DNA of 64,000 nt from Ginsengibacter hankyongi (GTDB lineage: Bacteria > Bacteroidota > Bacteroidia > Chitinophagales > Chitinophagaceae). Position 1 is the stretch's first letter. Each line of letters opens with the position of its first letter. A model generated the notes under the pieces. It had not been told where the DNA came from. It saw only the letters and a list, made by a program, of their open reading frames with translations, and did not search any database. Shown one piece after another: positions 54,545 through 63,858 of the stretch. The stretch lies in assembly GCF_008710285.1 (NCBI RefSeq), contig NZ_VYQF01000001.1, positions 310,001 through 374,000 of the forward strand. The letters are read 5' to 3'. The translations under genes were made by a program, and so were the position numbers.

Positions 54545-54946
54545 ATGAAAAAATTCCTGGCACTATTACCCTTATTAATTTTATTAGCAGCATGCGGCGG
54601 TAACAGTAATGAATCTACCTCAAGCACAACTACTGACAGTTCATCAACAACGCAAGCCGCGGCAAATGACATTTCTTCTAACCCCGATTATCAAAAAGGA
54701 TTAGCGCTTGTTGCCAAATCGAATTGCCTTACCTGCCATAAAGTTGAAGAGAAATTAATTGGACCGGCTTATAAAGATGTTGCAAACAAATATGCTGGAA
54801 ATGATACAGCCGTTACCTATCTTGCCCATAAAGTAATTGCAGGCGGCAAAGGAGTTTGGGGACAAGTGGCAATGACGCCTCATCCTGATTTAAGTGAAGC
54901 GGACGCAGAACAAATGGTAAAATATATTTTGTTACTGAAACAATAA
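54545..54946 (+). CDS. Monoheme c-type cytochrome lipoprotein
   Basis: A 133-residue lipoprotein: lipobox LLAAC (Cys17), a Ser/Thr-rich linker (residues 18-40), then a class I cytochrome c domain with CLTCH (Cys61, Cys64, His65) and a distal Met110 in WGQVAMTPHP. It carries electrons at the membrane surface, e.g. to a terminal oxidase or reductase. A TATCTTTA element lies at 54492-54499 and a strong terminator follows at 54972. Probably transcribed alone. Confidence 0.9.
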   Translation: MKKFLALLPLLILLAACGGNSNESTSSTTTDSSSTTQAAANDISSNPDYQKGLALVAKSNCLTCHKVEEKLIGPAYKDVANKYAGNDTAVTYLAHKVIAGGKGVWGQVAMTPHPDLSEADAEQMVKYILLLKQ

Positions 54947-54971: not shown

Positions 54972-54998
54972 AAAGCCCTGCCCAGGGCTTTTTTTATT
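54972..54998 (+). terminator. Rho-independent terminator after the cytochrome c gene
   Basis: AAAGCCCT (54972-54979) pairs with AGGGCTTT (54984-54991) around GCCC, followed by a T-rich run. It lies 26 bp after the cytochrome stop. Confidence 0.9.
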
Positions 54999-55110: not shown

Positions 55111-56142
55111 ATGAGTAATCTGATTTCTTTTACTGATAAAGGCCTTTATTGCGTACAGGGAAATTTTTATATTGATCCCTGGAAGCCTGTAGATAAAGCC
55201 ATCATAACACATGGACATGCAGATCATGCATATTTGGGACATAGGAATTATTTATGTCATCCGTATACAAAAACAATACTTCAATTACGGTTAGGCGATA
55301 ATAATTATCAAACGTTGGAATGGAATGAAATAATTAACTTAAATGGTGTAAAAGTTTCCTTACATCCCGCAGGTCACATTATAGGTTCGTCACAGGTAAG
55401 ACTCGAGTATAATCATGAAGTCTGGGTAGTTAGCGGCGATTATAAGGTAGAAGATGATGGAATCAGCGGGCAATTTGAACCACTTAAATGTACCACATTC
55501 ATTACAGAATCAACCTTTGGTTTACCAATTTTTAAATGGAAGCCGCAAGAGGAAATTTATAGCAATATTATAAACTGGATTAGTAAGAATAAAGAGAATG
55601 GAAAAACGAGCGTGTTATTGGCCTACAGCCTGGGCAAAGCCCAGCGCGTATTACAGGCGATTAAAGAAACCACTCAAACAATTTTTGCACATGGCGCAGT
55701 ATTTAACTTACAATCAATGTTAATAGACGATGGATGGAATTTAACACCTGTGGAAAGAATAACACCCGAAACTCCTGCCGAACTTTTAAAGGGCACGGTC
55801 GTAGTGGCGCCGCCGGGCGCAGATGGAACGCCATGGATGAAAAAATTTAATCCATATTCTGTCGGCGTTTGCAGCGGATGGATGCAGGTAAGAGGAAATG
55901 CACGACGAAGAAATGTTGATGCAGGATTTGTATTAAGCGATCACGCGGATTGGAATGGCTTAATACAAACCGTAAAAGAAACCGGCGCTGAAAGGATTTT
56001 TGTAACTCACGGTTTTCAATCTGCGTTTAGCCGTTACTGTAATGAACAAAATATCGCTATTGCTGCAGAAGTAAAAACACAATATGGCAACGAAGATGAA
56101 GAAGCGGTCCAGGAAAATGTTAAACAAGAAAGTGGTATTTAA
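55111..56142 (+). CDS. Ligase-associated DNA exonuclease (metallo-beta-lactamase fold)
   Basis: A 343-residue protein of the beta-CASP/metallo-beta-lactamase type. The metal motif HGHADH is at 34-39, followed by LHPAGHIIGSSQ (about 90-101), a Asp in VSGDYK (about 109-114) and a late DHADWNGL-type segment (about 280-290). This group is always found next to an ATP-dependent DNA ligase and a helicase, and is predicted to trim DNA ends before ligation. Start is 13 bp before the ligase gene start of its partner's upstream limit: the ligase begins 13 bp after this stop. First gene of the repair cassette. Confidence 0.93.
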   Translation: MSNLISFTDKGLYCVQGNFYIDPWKPVDKAIITHGHADHAYLGHRNYLCHPYTKTILQLRLGDNNYQTLEWNEIINLNGVKVSLHPAGHIIGSSQVRLEYNHEVWVVSGDYKVEDDGISGQFEPLKCTTFITESTFGLPIFKWKPQEEIYSNIINWISKNKENGKTSVLLAYSLGKAQRVLQAIKETTQTIFAHGAVFNLQSMLIDDGWNLTPVERITPETPAELLKGTVVVAPPGADGTPWMKKFNPYSVGVCSGWMQVRGNARRRNVDAGFVLSDHADWNGLIQTVKETGAERIFVTHGFQSAFSRYCNEQNIAIAAEVKTQYGNEDEEAVQENVKQESGI

Positions 56143-56155
56143 ATACCATATTTAA

Positions 56156-57823
56156 ATGAAAGAAGAGAAAGTACATATTAACCATCCGGTGTTATTAACC
56201 GAAAAGCATGATAGCATTTCGGGTCTTGCATTATTTGCGCAACTTGTTACAGAATTAAGTTCATCAACCAAAACAAATGATAAGCTACAAAGTCTTGTAG
56301 ATTATTTTGCAACAGCGCCCGATGCAGATAAGGTGTGGGTAATTGCCATATTCAGTGGGCGCAGGCCCAGGCGAGCCGTAAATTCCAGGCTAATGCGTGA
56401 ATGGTGCGCCGAAATTACTAACTATCCGTCATGGCTATTCGATGAATGTTATCATTCAGTTGGCGACCTTGCCGAAACACTTGCCTTACTCCTGCCGGAA
56501 ACAAAAGAACAGGATCAAATAAATAAAAGTCTTTCTTATTACCTTGAAACATTTATTTCAATCGAAAAACAAGACGAAGCAATAAGAAAGAAATTTATCG
56601 TGGATAGCTGGAATCAAATGAACCGCGACGAAAGATTTGTTTTTAATAAATTAATAACAGGAAGTTTTCGAATCGGTGTTTCACAAAAAACAATTGTAAA
56701 TGCATTGGCCAAAATAGTTGACTTATCATCTTCAGTAATTGCTCATCGCATCAGTGGAAACTGGGATCCTTCAACAACATCATTTAATGATTTGCTAAGC
56801 GAATCTGCGTCTATAACTGATTTTTCGAAGCCCTACCCTTTTTACCTGGCGTATGCATTAGAAGAAGAACCACAAAATTTAGGTGATCCAAAAGGTTGGC
56901 AGGCTGAATGGAAATGGGATGGTATTCGTGGACAATTAATAAAGCGTAACAATGAATTATTTGTATGGAGCCGCGGCGAGGAATTAATGACAGACAAATT
57001 TCCTGAATATTTTATCCTGAAAGATTTATTGCCTGATGGCGTAGTTATTGACGGAGAAATAATTCCAGCTGTTAATGGAAAGCCGCTACCCTTCTCTGTT
57101 TTACAAACACGAATTGGAAGAAAAAATATCGGCAAGAAACAATTGCAAGAAGCGCCCATTGCGTTTTTTGCTTACGATCTCCTTGAATTCCATCAACAAG
57201 ACTTTCGCGAAAAATCATTAACAGTAAGGAGGAACAAACTGGAAGAGATAGTTCAGCCTTTAAAAAATAATGCAATTCAAATTTCGCAGATTATAAATTT
57301 CAATACATGGGATGAGCTTAAAGAAATAAGAAAAGGGGCAAGAGAAATGAACAGTGAAGGTATTATGTTGAAAAGAAAAGATTCTAATTATAAAGTTGGG
57401 AGAAAACGTGGCGATTGGTGGAAATGGAAGATTGATCCTTTAACGATTGACTGCGTGATGGTGTATGCACAAAAAGGAAGTGGAAGAAGAAGTAACTTAT
57501 ATACAGATTATACTTTCGCTGTTAAAGATGGCGATAACCTGGTGACATTTACTAAAGCATATTCAGGCTTAACCGATAAAGAGTTTGCACAGATTGATAA
57601 TTTTGTAAAAAGAAACTCTCTCGAAAAATTCGGACCCGTACGCACCGTAAAACCAGAACTTGTTTTTGAAATTGCTTTTGAGGGAATTGCAGCAAGCAAT
57701 CGTCATAAAAGTGGAGTGGCTTTACGTTTCCCAAGAATGAGCCGCTGGCGGAAAGATAAAAGTGTAGATGAAATAAATACCCTTGACGACCTCAAACAAA
57801 TGCTAAATACTTATGGAAAATAA
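56156..57823 (+). CDS. ATP-dependent DNA ligase
   Basis: A 555-residue ligase of the bacterial accessory type. N-terminal DNA-binding region (about 1-220), the adenylation lysine Lys253 in KWDGIRGQ, then VIDGEIIPAV (motif III region), motif IV ..EGIMLKRKDSNYKVG (about 402-416) and motif V WWKWKIDPLTIDCVM. The C-terminal OB-fold is present (about 440-540). It closes nicks using ATP as part of a repair pathway with the exonuclease, helicase and PdeM; it is not the essential NAD-dependent LigA. Placed 13 bp after the exonuclease gene. Confidence 0.94.
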   Translation: MKEEKVHINHPVLLTEKHDSISGLALFAQLVTELSSSTKTNDKLQSLVDYFATAPDADKVWVIAIFSGRRPRRAVNSRLMREWCAEITNYPSWLFDECYHSVGDLAETLALLLPETKEQDQINKSLSYYLETFISIEKQDEAIRKKFIVDSWNQMNRDERFVFNKLITGSFRIGVSQKTIVNALAKIVDLSSSVIAHRISGNWDPSTTSFNDLLSESASITDFSKPYPFYLAYALEEEPQNLGDPKGWQAEWKWDGIRGQLIKRNNELFVWSRGEELMTDKFPEYFILKDLLPDGVVIDGEIIPAVNGKPLPFSVLQTRIGRKNIGKKQLQEAPIAFFAYDLLEFHQQDFREKSLTVRRNKLEEIVQPLKNNAIQISQIINFNTWDELKEIRKGAREMNSEGIMLKRKDSNYKVGRKRGDWWKWKIDPLTIDCVMVYAQKGSGRRSNLYTDYTFAVKDGDNLVTFTKAYSGLTDKEFAQIDNFVKRNSLEKFGPVRTVKPELVFEIAFEGIAASNRHKSGVALRFPRMSRWRKDKSVDEINTLDDLKQMLNTYGK

Positions 57824-57905
57824 GTTAAAAATTTCTTTCATGGAAAACTGTTAGGCGTTGTTAAACCATAAAATAATTCTTGATTATAAAATAACTTTGA
57901 TTGTA

Positions 57906-59282
57906 ATGAAATCCGTATTTATAATATTTATTTTATCTGCTGCATGTGCATTTTGCAGCTTTTTTATCAAAAATAAAAAACCGACAGATCCGGTATATAT
58001 AGAAGCGTCACAACAACGAACTGGCGATGCAGAAGCCGGCTATATTTACCTTACAGAAGGCGATTACTTAAAAAGCGGAATTCCAATCGGGCTTTTTAAA
58101 ATGGGCTTTGGTAAAAGTGGTAACGACCTGGGAAGAGAAGGCATCAATAAAAACATTCCCTATTCTTTCAATGCAGTAATTGCGCCAAATGGAGAAAAAA
58201 TCGTATCGCCCAATTGTCTTCAATGCCATGCACAGGAATTCAATGGTAAAATTGTTATTGGCATGGGAAATTCTTTATCTGATTATACCAGCAATCGCAC
58301 TTCTACCGCCAAATTATTAGAAAGGTTTCTTAAAGCAGGACCTGGAAAAGAAAAGAAATACGAAGCTGCAGAAAACTTCATTCGTTCGGTTGAAGCGGTT
58401 TCACCATATCTTGTTACGGAGACTAAAGGAGTAAATATAGCAGACAGGCTTGCCGCTCTTCTCGCAGCTCACAGAGATCCTAAATCTTTTAAATGGTCCG
58501 ACAGCTTACTATTATCCATACCCGAAGAAATCATACCCACAGATGTTCCGGCATGGTGGCTGCTCAAAAAGAAGCATGCAATGTTTTACAACGGATTTGG
58601 AAGAGGTGATTTCGGAAGATTTCTAATGGCATCAAACTTACTAACGGTTACGGATACAAGTGAAGCCGCAGAAGTTGATAGCCACATTAATGATGTTCTG
58701 GCATATATCTATTCCCTTCAACCTCCCGCTTATCCTAAGCCAATTAATGCAAAACTCGCAGATAAAGGTCAGCTCATTTTTGAACAATATTGCATGGATT
58801 GCCATGGTACTTATGGCAAAGATTGTTCCTACCCTAACCTCCTTATTCCTGAAGAAGTGATTCAAACAGATTCTTTATTATACTCCTCTAATTACAGCAG
58901 CCCGCAATTTGTAAACTGGTTTAACCAAAGCTGGTTTACTTCAGGCGATCACCCGGCGAAACTGGTACCTTTCAGAGGCTATATTGCACCACCCCTTGAC
59001 GGAATCTGGGCCACGGCTCCCTATCTTCATAATGGCTCGGTGCCAAATCTTGAAACCTTATTAAACAGTAAGCTAAGGCCAAAGTATTGGGACCGGAATT
59101 TTGATGATCCCCAATATGATGTTGATGCCCCCGGATGGAAATTTAAAACAGAAACTTCCGCCTCCGGCAAAAACACTTACAATACCACGCTGAAAGGCTA
59201 CAGAAATACAGGCCATACTTTTGGAGATCAACTTTCCGATGACGAAAGAACAGCACTTATAGAATACCTGAAAACTTTATAA
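57906..59282 (+). CDS. Diheme c-type cytochrome inside the DNA-repair cassette
   Basis: About 458 residues from the ATG at 57906 (a TTG-started reading from 57858 adds 16 residues). Signal-like N-terminus MKSVFIIFILSAACAFC. Heme sites CLQCH (Cys120, Cys123, His124 by the long numbering) and CMDCH (Cys312, Cys315, His316). MGFGKSG, WWLLKKKHAMFYNGFGRGDFGRF and LDGIWATAPYLHNGSVPNLETLL are the conserved segments; the last is found in diheme peroxidase-like and dehydrogenase-associated cytochromes. The two hemes suggest a peroxidase/electron-transfer role in the periplasm. It is out of place between ligase (83 bp gap) and helicase (6 bp gap); the helicase likely depends on its transcription. Confidence 0.85.
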   Translation: MKSVFIIFILSAACAFCSFFIKNKKPTDPVYIEASQQRTGDAEAGYIYLTEGDYLKSGIPIGLFKMGFGKSGNDLGREGINKNIPYSFNAVIAPNGEKIVSPNCLQCHAQEFNGKIVIGMGNSLSDYTSNRTSTAKLLERFLKAGPGKEKKYEAAENFIRSVEAVSPYLVTETKGVNIADRLAALLAAHRDPKSFKWSDSLLLSIPEEIIPTDVPAWWLLKKKHAMFYNGFGRGDFGRFLMASNLLTVTDTSEAAEVDSHINDVLAYIYSLQPPAYPKPINAKLADKGQLIFEQYCMDCHGTYGKDCSYPNLLIPEEVIQTDSLLYSSNYSSPQFVNWFNQSWFTSGDHPAKLVPFRGYIAPPLDGIWATAPYLHNGSVPNLETLLNSKLRPKYWDRNFDDPQYDVDAPGWKFKTETSASGKNTYNTTLKGYRNTGHTFGDQLSDDERTALIEYLKTL

Positions 59283-59288
59283 ACCATA

Positions 59289-61787
59289 GTGAAATTAAAA
59301 GCTACAAAAGGTTATGATGTTGTCCATGCGTGGCTAAAGGAAAAAAGCCTGTCGCCTTTTCAATTTCAACAGGAAACATGGCAACATATCATCGACAAAA
59401 AATCGGGTCTTGTAAATGCGCCAACCGGTTGCGGTAAAACCTTTTCAGTTTTTCTCGGATCTGTTATTGATTTTATAAATGAACATCCAAAAAATTATAA
59501 AACAAAATCAAAAAATAACTTGCAACTTTTATGGGTAACACCGCTGCGTGCATTGGCTACTGATATCGGAAGGGCTATGGAAGAAGTTATTGATGAATTA
59601 GGAATGAACTGGAAAGTTGGTATTAGAAATGGAGATACCAGCATCAGCGACAGGCAAAAACAAAAAAGGCAGGTGCCTGAAGTGCTTATTATAACTCCTG
59701 AAAGCCTTCATCTTTTATTGGCGCACAAAAATTATACGGATGTTTTTAAATCTCTTAAAATAGTAGCAGTTGATGAATGGCATGAATTACTTGGATCAAA
59801 AAGAGGTGTGCAGGTTGAGCTGGCAATTTCAAGATTGGCTGGTCTGAATCCAAAATTTTGCCTTTGGGGAATATCAGCAACAATAGGAAATCTGCAACAG
59901 GCAAAAGAAGTATTACTTTCTCCAATTGCAAATTTATATCAACAATCACCTGATAAATTTGGAGAAACCGTAACCGCACAGATTGATAAGAATATACAAA
60001 TCGAATCAGTGTTTCCTGATGAGATTGAAAAGTTTCCATGGGCCGGTCATTTAGGAATTAAACTGGTTGATAAAGTAATTCCTATAATAATGAACAGCAG
60101 AACGACGCTCATTTTCATAAACACACGTGGCATGAGTGAAATGTGGTACCAGGCGTTGCTTACTGCTTGTCCTGAACTTGCCGGAGTAATTGCATTGCAT
60201 CATGGAAGTATTGAACAGGATTTAAGAAGCTGGGTCGAAGAAAATTTGCATACAGGAAAATTGAAAACAGTGGTATGCACGGCAAGCCTTGACCTCGGAG
60301 TAGATTTTCGCCCAGTCGAGACCGTTATACAAGTTGGTTCGCCAAAAGGTGTTGCAAGGTTTTTGCAACGGGCAGGAAGAAGTGGGCACAGACCCGGTGA
60401 AATAAGTAAGATTTATTTTCTCCCAACGCACTCCCTGGAACTGATGGAAGCTGCTGCATTAAAAGAAGCTACAGAAATTAAATTGATAGAAAGCCGGGAG
60501 CCACGGCTTTTATGTTTTGATGTGTTAATTCAATACTTGAGCACACTCGCTATTTCTGATGGATTTTATCCGAAAGATATTTTTGAAGAGATTAAAACAA
60601 CGTATTGTTATCGTGATATAAATGACGAAGAATGGCAAAAAATCCTGCAATTCACAACGGCCGGTGGAGTGGCATTGCAGCAATATGATGATTACAAAAA
60701 AATAGAAATAATTGATGGCTTGTATAAAATAAACAACAGGCGCATTGCCATGCGTCACCGGATGCACATTGGCACTATCGTTAGTGACCCTATGATGAAA
60801 GTAAAATTTATCAGTGGAGGATTCGTCGGTGTTATAGAAGAATGGTTTATTGCAAGGCTGCAGCCAGGAGATATATTTACATTAGCAGGCAGAACGCTTG
60901 AATTTGTGATGATAAAAGAAATGACTGCTTTGGTTAGGAAATCAAATGCAAAAAAATCTATTATCCCAAGCTGGCAGGGAGGAAGGATGCCATTATCAGC
61001 AAACCTTGGGTTTATGCTGAGAAAGAAATTTGATGAGGCCGGCTTGCTTCTGCATAAAAAAAATAAAAAAGGAATTGACAGAGAAATAACAGAGCTGCAA
61101 CCTTTATTTGAACTGCAGGAATATCTTTCTCATATTCCAAAACAAAATGAGTTATTAATTGAACATATTGAAACCCAGGATGGTTTTCATCTTTTTGTTT
61201 TCCCTTTTGAAGGAAGACTCGTGCACGAAGCCATGGCTGCCGTTTTAGCATACAGGATTAGCCGCATTACTCCGATCACTTTTTCACTGGCAATGAATGA
61301 TTATGGCTTTGAACTATTAAGCGATCAGCCTATACCGTTAGATGATACCAATTCGTACGGATTATTTTCTCCCCAAAATCTTTTTGCAGATATTCAGCGC
61401 AGCTTAAACAGTGTTGAAATGGCTAAAAGGAAATTCAGGGATATTGCTGTGATAGGGGGATTAATTTTTACAGGTTTCCCTGGTGAGCAGAAAAAAGCAA
61501 GACATCTTCAATCATCAGCTTCTCTTTTATTTAATGTGTTCGCAGAGTATGAGCCAGGAAATCTATTACTCCGGCAATCTTATAACGAAGTAATGGAGCA
61601 ACAAATGGAAGAAGAACGTTTAAGAAAGATGCTTGAAAGAATTCAAAAAAGTAAGATCATTATTACCTTTCCTAACAGGCTAACTCCTTTTTGCTTTCCA
61701 ATTAAAGTTGATAGCATGCGTGAGAATCTTACATCGGAAAAATTAGAAGACAGGGTAAAGAGAATGCAAATGCAATTGGAGAAATGA
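59289..61787 (+). CDS. Ligase-associated Lhr-like DEXH-box helicase
   Basis: An 832-residue helicase with GTG start at 59289, 6 bp after the cytochrome stop. Walker A APTGCGKT at 44-51, DEWH at 162-165, SAT-like ISATIG, and a second RecA domain ending QRAGRSGHRPGE (about 359-370). A C-terminal winged-helix/accessory region (about 410-832) resembles Lhr. It is the ligase-associated DNA damage response helicase group, which partners with the adjacent exonuclease, ligase and PdeM. It probably translocates on single-stranded DNA to unwind damaged DNA for end processing. Confidence 0.94.
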   Translation: MKLKATKGYDVVHAWLKEKSLSPFQFQQETWQHIIDKKSGLVNAPTGCGKTFSVFLGSVIDFINEHPKNYKTKSKNNLQLLWVTPLRALATDIGRAMEEVIDELGMNWKVGIRNGDTSISDRQKQKRQVPEVLIITPESLHLLLAHKNYTDVFKSLKIVAVDEWHELLGSKRGVQVELAISRLAGLNPKFCLWGISATIGNLQQAKEVLLSPIANLYQQSPDKFGETVTAQIDKNIQIESVFPDEIEKFPWAGHLGIKLVDKVIPIIMNSRTTLIFINTRGMSEMWYQALLTACPELAGVIALHHGSIEQDLRSWVEENLHTGKLKTVVCTASLDLGVDFRPVETVIQVGSPKGVARFLQRAGRSGHRPGEISKIYFLPTHSLELMEAAALKEATEIKLIESREPRLLCFDVLIQYLSTLAISDGFYPKDIFEEIKTTYCYRDINDEEWQKILQFTTAGGVALQQYDDYKKIEIIDGLYKINNRRIAMRHRMHIGTIVSDPMMKVKFISGGFVGVIEEWFIARLQPGDIFTLAGRTLEFVMIKEMTALVRKSNAKKSIIPSWQGGRMPLSANLGFMLRKKFDEAGLLLHKKNKKGIDREITELQPLFELQEYLSHIPKQNELLIEHIETQDGFHLFVFPFEGRLVHEAMAAVLAYRISRITPITFSLAMNDYGFELLSDQPIPLDDTNSYGLFSPQNLFADIQRSLNSVEMAKRKFRDIAVIGGLIFTGFPGEQKKARHLQSSASLLFNVFAEYEPGNLLLRQSYNEVMEQQMEEERLRKMLERIQKSKIIITFPNRLTPFCFPIKVDSMRENLTSEKLEDRVKRMQMQLEK

Positions 61788-61800
61788 TTTTAATAATAAC

Positions 61801-61880
61801 AGATTAAATGAACGAATTATAATATTGAATTGAATTGTATTAATTCATGTAATTCGTATCTCAAAATTCGTGTAATAAAA
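61801..61880 (+). repeat. Tandem ATTCGTGTAAT repeat between helicase and pdeM
   Basis: Two 11-base copies, ATTCATGTAAT at 61843-61853 and ATTCGTGTAAT at 61866-61876, within AACGAATT/AATTCGTA words that repeat in both orientations. It precedes a new promoter for pdeM. Words of this type are frequent between genes in Bacteroidota. Confidence 0.5.
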
Positions 61881-61883
61881 AAT

Positions 61884-61891
61884 TATCTTTG
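61884..61891 (+). promoter_or_regulatory. -7 element (TATCTTTG) for pdeM
   Basis: TATCTTTG is an exact TAnnTTTG match whose last base is 9 bp before the TTG start of pdeM, so transcript 5' end and start codon would be almost coincident. The -33 element is not clear. Confidence 0.5.
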
Positions 61892-61900
61892 CTTTAAAAA

Positions 61901-62563
61901 TTGTTTTCTCCACAAAAATTTATTCTTCATAAAGAAACACTTTGGCTTTCGCCTGCCCGCTGCGTTTATTGGGAAGACGAAAAAGCATTAATACTTTCCG
62001 ATCTTCATTTTGGAAAGACAGGACATTTTAGAAAAGAAGGAATTGGAGTGCCTCAAAATATTTTTAAAGAAGACCTGCAAAGATTATTTACACAGATTCA
62101 ATTTTTTAAACCTTCCGTTTTACTCATTGCGGGAGATATGTTTCACAGTAAGGCTAATAAAGAAATTGATCTTTTTTTAAAATGGAGAAATGATTTGCAT
62201 GCAATAGATTTTCATTTAATAAAAGGTAACCATGATGTGCTCCCTGATAAATTTTATGAAGAAGCTGGTATAAAAGTTTCAAAAAAGAAATTATCGGTTA
62301 AGAACTTTTGCTTTACACACGATATAAATGAAGAATGTGAAAATGATGATGAAATAACTTTTACTTTTTCGGGGCATATACATCCGGGCATTAAAGTTAA
62401 TGGAGTTGGCAAGCAATCATTCATGCTTCCCTGTTTTTATTTTAGTGATACGTATGCGGTGCTCCCGGCGTTTAGTTATTTTACCGGTTTATATAAAATA
62501 AAACCTGGCAAAAAAGACAATGTATTTGCGTTGGTTGAAAATAAGGTTATAAAAATGCAGTGA
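61901..62563 (+). CDS. pdeM: Ligase-associated DNA damage response endonuclease PdeM
   Basis: A 220-residue metallophosphoesterase. Motifs: SDLHFGKTGHF (33-43), GDMFHS (78-83), GNHD (109-112) and SGHIHPG (about 158-164), all five metal-binding sites of the calcineurin-like fold. Start codon is TTG at 61901: the in-frame TAA at 61895-61897 and the early position of SDLH force this choice, as no ATG precedes the first motif. It is a predicted nuclease for the ligase-helicase-exonuclease pathway, last gene of the cassette, with its own promoter. It meets the proline dehydrogenase gene head to tail with a 3 bp gap on the opposite strand. Confidence 0.93.
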   Translation: MFSPQKFILHKETLWLSPARCVYWEDEKALILSDLHFGKTGHFRKEGIGVPQNIFKEDLQRLFTQIQFFKPSVLLIAGDMFHSKANKEIDLFLKWRNDLHAIDFHLIKGNHDVLPDKFYEEAGIKVSKKKLSVKNFCFTHDINEECENDDEITFTFSGHIHPGIKVNGVGKQSFMLPCFYFSDTYAVLPAFSYFTGLYKIKPGKKDNVFALVENKVIKMQ

Positions 62564-62566
62564 TAT

Positions 62567-63778
62567 TTATTCTGATGACCGGCGCAATAATTCTTGCTTT
62601 ATTAATAAGAGCTCGCGCCCGGTTTGCCCGCTTACAGAAGCATTCTCCTGCGCTCTTCTCATGAGATATGGAATTACATCTTTTATGGGCCCGAATGGCA
62701 AATATTTGCTCACATAACAACCGGCTTTTGCGAGGTTAAATGAAATATTATCACTCATGCCATACAACTGCGAAAAATGAACACGATCATAATGTAAAGG
62801 CAGGCCAAATTTTTCCATTAATTGAGTGGCATATAAATTACTGTATTCGTTATGCGAACCAACTATTATGTAAACACCATTCGAAGGATTAACACAAAAT
62901 TCAATTGCGGCATTATAGTCAGCGTCTGTCGCCTGTTTCGTTTCATTTATTGGGGAAGGATAATTTAATAAGGCAGCACGCTCACGTTCTTTATCCATGT
63001 AAGCACCACGCACCAATTTCATTCCCAACTTAAAATTATTTTCTTTCGCAAAGTGGCAGCTATCTTTTACAAATTGCAAACGATCTTTTCTGTAAAGCTG
63101 GGCAGTATTATAAACAACGGTTTTTTCAATGTTATATTTCTGCATCATTTGTATGGTTAATGCATCCACGGGATCCTGTATCCATGTTTCTTCCGCATCA
63201 ACCAGCACCCCAATGTTTTTATTTTTTGCAGTTGAGCAAATTATATCTAGCCTGTTCACAATTCTATTCCACTCTTCTTTTTCATTTTCATTTAATGAAT
63301 CCAACGGAACTATGCCCCGGATAATATCATTATAATTTGAAGCTTCATGTAATTTTTGAAGTAAACCAAAGCGGGCGTAACCAGTGAGTTTCACACTCAT
63401 AAACGGAATATTGCTTTGAGTGGAAGCATATTGAATTGATTGAATGAATATATCTCTTGCCTTGTCAAAATTTTCTTCACCTTCTTTTCCTTCAACTCCA
63501 TAATCGAGGATTACCTGCACATTAAATTTTCCTAATTTATTAGCAACGACAGATGTTTCCTGCAAAGATTCTCCGCCAACAAACTGGCTAAAAATTGTCT
63601 GCCTTATCAAACCCTTAACTGGCAAACCCACTTTAAGCGCCCATGGCGTAAGTTTTAAACCAATATTTACTAACCAGGCTTTTCCCATGGAAGCAAAAAG
63701 GAATTTTGCTTTTTTCAATTCTTTATCGGTTTTATACTCAAAAGCTATTTTGGTATTGTCGAAAGATATGTTTGCCAT
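62567..63778 (-). CDS. Proline dehydrogenase
   Basis: A 403-residue FAD enzyme from ATG 63778 (an earlier start at 63805 adds nine residues). It has the PutA-like (beta/alpha)8 barrel: SVKLTGYARFGL (about 148-159), GVLVDAEETWIQDP (about 200-213), KLVRGAYMDKERERA (about 262-276), AAIEFCVN, VGSHNE (about 316-321) and a C-terminal LPYGP/LMRRAQENASV region (AAs 372-392), with the YxxRRxxE sequence of the active site. It oxidises proline to pyrroline-5-carboxylate and passes electrons to quinone. It lacks the aldehyde dehydrogenase half of long PutA, which must be a separate gene elsewhere. Confidence 0.95.
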   Translation of the reverse strand: MANISFDNTKIAFEYKTDKELKKAKFLFASMGKAWLVNIGLKLTPWALKVGLPVKGLIRQTIFSQFVGGESLQETSVVANKLGKFNVQVILDYGVEGKEGEENFDKARDIFIQSIQYASTQSNIPFMSVKLTGYARFGLLQKLHEASNYNDIIRGIVPLDSLNENEKEEWNRIVNRLDIICSTAKNKNIGVLVDAEETWIQDPVDALTIQMMQKYNIEKTVVYNTAQLYRKDRLQFVKDSCHFAKENNFKLGMKLVRGAYMDKERERAALLNYPSPINETKQATDADYNAAIEFCVNPSNGVYIIVGSHNEYSNLYATQLMEKFGLPLHYDRVHFSQLYGMSDNISFNLAKAGCYVSKYLPFGPIKDVIPYLMRRAQENASVSGQTGRELLLIKQELLRRSSE

Positions 63779-63858
63779 AATTGAAGGCCGAAATTCCAAA
63801 ATCAAAAACTAATAACCAAATAAATAAGTTGGCAAAAAAAGGCGCTGTTATTTTGGAG

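Follow-up and report, generated by a model that had tools for sequence, protein, structure and literature searches.

Within a 64,000-nucleotide window of the Ginsengibacter hankyongi genome (contig NZ_VYQF01000001.1, positions 310,001 to 374,000), we analyzed a DNA repair cassette in which a gene for a diheme c-type cytochrome separates the ligase gene from the helicase gene. All five genes lie on the + strand in the order exonuclease, ATP-dependent DNA ligase, cytochrome, Lhr-type helicase, and PdeM, and each of the four repair genes exceeds the curated cut-off of its own NCBIfam model (Table 1). The original prediction, made from the sequence alone, had named these repair genes, set a diheme cytochrome with exactly these coordinates between ligase and helicase, and let it end 6 bp before the helicase GTG; all of this was borne out, with two CxxCH motifs in the product and a gap of 6 bp (59283-59288). 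The gap from ligase to cytochrome is 82 bp, and that from helicase to PdeM 113 bp. Open reading frames (ORFs) were called mechanically from 70 amino acids upward, and the cytochrome ATG is internal to a longer ORF beginning with TTG at 57858.

A bacterial repair gene cluster of LigB, Lhr-core, MPE, and exonuclease was reportedly described by Ejaz and Shuman in 2018. The window resembles that cluster in carrying all four genes on one strand, with TIGR04120-04123 over cut-off, and differs from it in the cytochrome between ligase and helicase, as do other Chitinophagaceae. The uninterrupted ligase-helicase order, a common but non-defining trait of the cassette, is thus broken here. Excerpts of two papers describe an operon that combines ligase, Lhr helicase, phosphodiesterase, and a metallo-beta-lactamase-fold protein, with a role stated to be not known (PMC10140301), and report that 276 of 319 genomes have MPE close to bLhr (PMC8301817). 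We found nothing in print, within the open-licence literature, on the placement of a cytochrome in this cassette.

Table 1. Features of the cassette and its surroundings in the window
Feature	Coordinates	Strand	Support or position
Terminator-like hairpin between small cytochrome and exonuclease	54972-54991	+	8-pair stem
Metallo-beta-lactamase (MBL)-fold ligase-associated exonuclease (TIGR04122)	55111-56142	+	468.5 bits vs. cut-off 325
ATP-dependent DNA ligase, LigB type (TIGR04120)	56156-57823	+	622.2 bits vs. cut-off 400
TANNTTTG box (TAACTTTG), tentatively a possible -7 element of a cytochrome-helicase promoter	57892-57899	+	6 nt before cytochrome ATG
Probably exported diheme c-type cytochrome, RoxA fold	57906-59282	+	Two CxxCH, PF21419, AlphaFold2 model, likeness to 4b2n
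TANNTTTG box (TACTTTTG), possible own helicase promoter	59216-59223	+	Within the 3' end of the cytochrome gene; helicase GTG 65 nt downstream
Lhr-core-type DEXH helicase (TIGR04121), GTG start	59289-61787	+	1089.2 bits vs. cut-off 850
TANNTTTG box (TATCTTTG), probable own pdeM promoter	61884-61891	+	Before pdeM
PdeM / MPE phosphoesterase (TIGR04123), TTG start	61901-62563	+	201.8 bits vs. cut-off 150

The cytochrome consists of 458 amino acids with the heme motifs CLQCH (residues 104-108) and CMDCH (residues 296-300). It matched the Pfam family RoxA-like_Cyt-c (PF21419) with 82.8 bits against a cut-off of 26.7, and two general cytochrome c families of Pfam were also over cut-off. No match to CCP_MauG (PF03150) was obtained at an E-value of 0.1, and a search of the whole genome with this family returned two other loci, the cytochrome locus not among them. 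The score for the di-heme cytochrome c peroxidase model NF040606 (132.5 bits) was under the curated 150 bits, and those for the RoxA, RoxB, and RoxC equivalogs of NCBIfam (110.6, 114.4, and 140.7 bits) were far under the cut-offs of 1000, 900, and 900. Among solved chains, RoxA (4b2n) was the sole sequence match at E ≤ 0.001 (2.9e-24). An AlphaFold2 model built from 63 sequences (predicted local distance difference test, 89.3; predicted template modeling score, 0.86) likewise had RoxA as its top Foldseek match (E = 6.5e-16), with no other below 0.001, and VIA-align superposed the two over 409 residues (Z 25.5, root mean square deviation 3.0). Hydrazine synthase chain C (5c2v) stood second in the structural list, with Z 13.6 over 222 residues, but covers about half of the cytochrome at 18% identity. 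The bCcP/MauG peroxidases share the two hemes and a distant likeness of fold (Z 11 to 12 for MauG chains, about 9 to 11 for bCcP chains), in contrast to the missing PF03150 match.

The likeness to the RoxA/RoxB rubber oxygenases, which rests on the predicted model for the fold, extends to single residues. PYLHNGSVP at residues 372-380 satisfies the MauG motif P(Y/F)(F/L/M)HN(G/S)SVP given for RoxA and RoxB in excerpts of PMC6311187, and one RoxB listed there contains this very sequence. H437, invariant across the 63 sequences, aligns with RoxA H641 in the phmmer alignment, where it falls at chain position 641 by count, consistent with the second-heme ligand published in the same source and with bis-histidine ligation of that heme. 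Counting along this alignment, RoxA F301, W302, and F317 correspond to F227, Y228, and S243, of which the first is invariant and the other two nearly invariant among the 63 aligned relatives; RoxB carries Val at the position of Trp302 (PMC6311187, in part). An equivalent of Phe317 of the RoxA oxygen pocket was therefore not found by sequence alignment, Ser243 taking its place. F317 assists O2 binding and is conserved in every RoxA and RoxB tabulated in the excerpted part of PMC6311187, and a portion of PMC4496055 describes it as essential. The cytochrome is also about 200 residues shorter than RoxA and RoxB, and its matches at E ≤ 1e-60 in the phylum are confined to one order. Since F317 is missing, the cytochrome would be a RoxA-fold protein of a kind other than RoxA or RoxB, and it apparently represents an uncharacterised subfamily of this fold in which the pocket residue of the rubber oxygenases is lacking. 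The oleate-diol synthases PA2077/PA2078 (FadCcp), as described in part of PMC4496055, are likewise diheme enzymes that resemble RoxA, are exported, and differ in their pocket residues; they are longer proteins, set beside the cytochrome by description alone.

Residues 2-22 of the cytochrome form a helix compatible with a signal peptide or anchor. Covalent attachment of c-type heme takes place outside the cytoplasm and, together with this helix, puts the cytochrome most likely across the membrane from ligase and helicase. We conclude that it is probably exported and acts outside the cytoplasm, apart from the repair enzymes. Its chemistry is most likely that of a periplasmic oxidase or peroxidase with two covalent hemes, in which O2 or H2O2 would react at the N-terminal heme and electrons would pass via the bis-His C-terminal heme.

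The original prediction had called for a comparison of gene order across Chitinophagaceae. At E ≤ 1e-40, the cytochrome was matched in 76 of 294 genomes of the family; at E ≤ 1e-60, it was matched in 11 of 395 genomes of the phylum, every one from the same order. Matches were obtained in 15 of 59 relatives, own genome included; two of these were weak (4e-5 and 8e-4). In the own genus, where several genomes are incomplete, 4 of 19 other genomes had a match (one weak, one a divergent copy). We then compared 80 neighborhoods of up to 20 kb, window included, taken from 74 of the 76 family genomes with the cytochrome, three extra genomes of the own genus, and three from families elsewhere in the order. 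The two remaining cytochrome genomes of the family, G210 and G245 (the latter represented by two contig-end pieces), are outside this set. The helicase follows the cytochrome directly in 39 of these loci, which by genus labels span at least 17 genera. In 10 more it lies within three ORFs, in 3 farther downstream, and in 24 no helicase was found downstream within the stretch (in two of these, L085 and L086, it is upstream); 4 loci end at a contig edge. The ligase is on the left of the cytochrome in 30 of the 80 loci, and the direct order ligase-cytochrome-helicase was found in 17, window included, which argues for an arrangement beyond chance. Two loci fetched later and kept outside these counts show cytochrome then helicase (L259 of G210) and no helicase in sight (L258 of G036).

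Overlapping with this set, 80 loci on named contigs gave a similar picture (helicase direct in 36, within three in 15, not linked in 27, contig edge in 2). The direct order is found, for example, in Flavihumibacter cheonanensis, F. solisilvae, Pinibacter aurantiacus, Paraflavitalea sp. CAU 1676, and Terrimonas sp. RI_572; Niastella has an extra gene between cytochrome and helicase, and a linked helicase is lacking in, among others, Cnuella takakiae, Segetibacter, and Hydrotalea. In a tree of the 80 cytochromes, calculated without the two pieces of L119, helicase-linked loci occur throughout the family, an early-branching group included. The unlinked loci cluster as well, with 9 changes against 17.1 in shuffles and 10 of 19 within one clade of 20. 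The recurrence in many related bacteria points to the cytochrome placement as a long-standing tendency of gene order in the family.

Outside the family, the picture changes. We inspected the best 30 of 78 helicase genomes from the phylum search, none of them of the family, and found neither a cytochrome match nor any CxxCH in forward frames within 1.5 kb upstream of the helicase in any of the 30; a ligase was within 1.5 kb upstream in 12 and pdeM downstream in 25. In another family of the order, three genomes carry both genes; in two the genes are on different contigs, and in the third some 13 kb separates them and their strands differ. On these two results we rejected the idea that the cytochrome belongs to the repair cassette in general.

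Clustering of the neighboring genes revealed the usual surroundings of the cytochrome: a DUF2807 gene, guaA (GMP synthase), a gene with a sub-threshold periplasmic-binding match (f1), exonuclease and ligase where present, cytochrome, helicase, pdeM, and a histone deacetylase (HDAC)-like gene. Within the cytochrome loci the order is strict, with exonuclease then ligase in all 33 that have the exonuclease, and guaA then f1 in 42 of 42. Not every ligase comes with an exonuclease: among the loci listed, including those without the cytochrome, a ligase with no recognised exonuclease was seen in L125, L160, L161, L162, and L182. Among 40 family loci without the cytochrome, the ligase directly adjoins the helicase in 17, and nine (L134, L136, L137, L141, L143, L148, L150, L151, and L152) have guaA, f1, exonuclease, ligase, and helicase uninterrupted, so that the cytochrome is present or absent at one same point of the block. 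In G. hankyongi, guaA and f1 are adjacent on another contig (C31), in a stretch with no cassette, which indicates that the block is broken upstream of the exonuclease in this genome. By eye, no recurrent alternative partner was seen beside the unlinked cytochromes, with clustering that required at least 4 loci.

Co-transcription of cytochrome and helicase, which the original prediction had considered probable, gains from this comparison. The gap between the two genes has a median of 17 bp (n = 34) and is ≤50 bp in 21 of 34 loci, and such short gaps make read-through likely; in the window, a scan found no terminator-like site on the + strand from the cytochrome start to the helicase start. We therefore consider it probable that the helicase is transcribed by read-through from the cytochrome gene. 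As a promoter signal we searched for TANNTTTG, which we take to be the Bacteroidetes -7 motif, comparing counts across loci with shuffles that preserve base composition only. It occurs near the pdeM start in 33 of 45 loci (2.7 in shuffles), and is weakly enriched before the cytochrome (10 of 78 loci; 4.7 in shuffles, SD 1.9). Counts before the exonuclease (2 of 31) and the ligase (0 of 33) were close to the shuffled ones (1.4 and 0.8). In the window as a whole the motif was rarer than in shuffles (62 found, 96.5 expected), as selection against stray -7 boxes would predict. A longer pattern, TTTG-17/23-TANNTTTG, matched 8 times in the window (6.6 expected) and not at all in the cassette, and a scan for sigma-70-type promoters was uninformative (26 found, 27.2 in shuffles).

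Taken together, we propose with some confidence that the cytochrome is an ancient and dispensable neighbor of the helicase, probably co-transcribed with it and acting as a periplasmic oxidase or peroxidase. In Chitinophagaceae, the ligase/Lhr/MPE/exonuclease cassette often sits within an old conserved block, which the RoxA-fold cytochrome gene may have joined at an early stage of the family's history, immediately 5' of the helicase gene. There it would have been retained in at least 17 genera; some others lack it at this position, and still others have it at another place. In G. hankyongi, guaA and f1 have a separate location, with the five genes still side by side. The dependence of the linkage on its surroundings is consistent with such a history. 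Of the 44 loci whose stretch includes guaA or f1, 38 place the helicase no more than three genes from the cytochrome, compared with 8 of 25 loci lacking both (8 of 23 when L122 and L123, from other families, are set aside); the remaining loci, 4 cut short on the right and 7 on the left, do not enter the comparison. This linkage is looser than the pairing of exonuclease with ligase (33 of 33) or of guaA with f1 (42 of 42). The cytochrome thus behaves as a neighbor retained while its neighborhood is retained.

Several observations weigh against this proposal. Eight of 51 loci carry TANNTTTG within 110 bp before the helicase, where shuffles gave 2.0 (SD 1.3), a second count gave 6 of 51 against 1.6, and the window has such a box of its own; these speak against read-through. 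The pattern of boxes as a whole suggests an own promoter for pdeM, a shared upstream one for exonuclease and ligase, and possibly an own promoter for some helicases. The original prediction would have counted against co-regulation the absence of the cytochrome from this place in relatives, joined with a promoter or terminator before the helicase: relatives do carry it there and no terminator-like site was found, whereas a promoter finds weak support in the box. Against a mere passenger stand the gaps, short across genera, and eight loci in which cytochrome and helicase remain together in a changed upstream context (three of these, L050, L051, and L054, are close relatives). In addition, a helicase is present in 72 of 76 genomes with the cytochrome and in 136 of 218 without (Fisher P = 9e-9, from hand counts uncontrolled for phylogeny and inflated by kinship).

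The short gaps and this co-occurrence would also fit a functional bond. The exported cytochrome would then rid the envelope of peroxides or oxidised lipids, and its joint expression with the helicase would let the removal of oxidants and the repair of oxidised DNA increase in step; a second heme-binding family (f9, PF14376) after the helicase in some loci points the same way. We regard this as rather unlikely. No cytochrome was matched in 136 of the 208 helicase-bearing family genomes, the helicase is not downstream or only farther off in 24 and 3 of the 80 loci, respectively (upstream in L085 and L086), and the match is sparse even in the own genus. Moreover, the linkage tracks chromosome context, and the two products would work in different compartments. 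Slightly less probable still is the stronger version, a genuine unit of two genes. In this version, the exported RoxA-fold cytochrome would be an enzyme for handling oxidants, specific to the lineage and from a new RoxA-like subfamily; it would be co-expressed with the Lhr helicase, so that oxidative damage at the envelope and nucleic-acid repair answer the same signal. The coupling of redox stress to DNA repair, one of two options in the original prediction, thus received no direct support and is not the likeliest reading, and the gene order is, as it stands, not yet evidence for a role of the cytochrome in DNA repair. The other option, an operon that absorbed an unrelated gene, holds in the long term, with no cytochrome at any of the 30 helicase loci outside the family, but fails as an event private to this genome. 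A recent chance insertion has in its favor only that ligase and helicase adjoin in 17 of the 40 family loci without the cytochrome; the same arrangement in other genera, spread over the cytochrome tree, refutes it, and we consider it scarcely credible. Nearly as improbable is a rubber or terpene dioxygenase in the RoxA/RoxB sense that merely uses the locus. Its fold, the MauG motif shared with a listed RoxB, and the aligned second-heme histidine would suit such an enzyme, but Ser243 at the Phe317 site and the low equivalog scores led us to reject this identity.

The damage repaired by the LigB/Lhr/MPE/exonuclease cassette is stated to be unknown in the relevant excerpt of PMC10140301. A two-gene unit, if true, would be a first hint of which damage the cassette serves. 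If instead the cytochrome is an old dispensable neighbor, as we propose, its placement is ordinary in mechanism and of interest as a family-wide variant of a known cassette, which also marks the apparently uncharacterised RoxA-fold subfamily. Natural presence and absence across the family offer a ready comparison between species with cytochrome and helicase together, with the helicase alone, and with the cytochrome elsewhere.

Further observations concern the surroundings of the cassette. pdeM and the HDAC-like gene lie within 600 bp of each other in 29 cytochrome loci, with a gap of ≤50 bp in all 29 (median -4 bp), and the pair occurs in 8 of 26 loci without the cytochrome; in the window, the HDAC-like gene does not adjoin pdeM. 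The family f9, represented in 12 loci, was identified as Haem_bd (PF14376) in the representative scanned, and it follows the helicase in 11 of the 80 loci listed (e.g., L053:10385-10894, L073, L078, and L088) as a second heme gene in the block. In L084 (G212), divergent RoxA-like cytochromes stand in tandem after exonuclease and ligase, with the helicase not in the stretch. Just 5' of the exonuclease, the window encodes a single-heme lipoprotein-like cytochrome (54545-54946), seen at this position in the window only among the 80 loci at the threshold used. The hairpin of Table 1 separates it from the cassette; terminator-like sites in the region numbered 10, compared with 7.5 in shuffles. On the other side, a putative proline dehydrogenase-like gene (62567-63805) runs convergent with the cassette.

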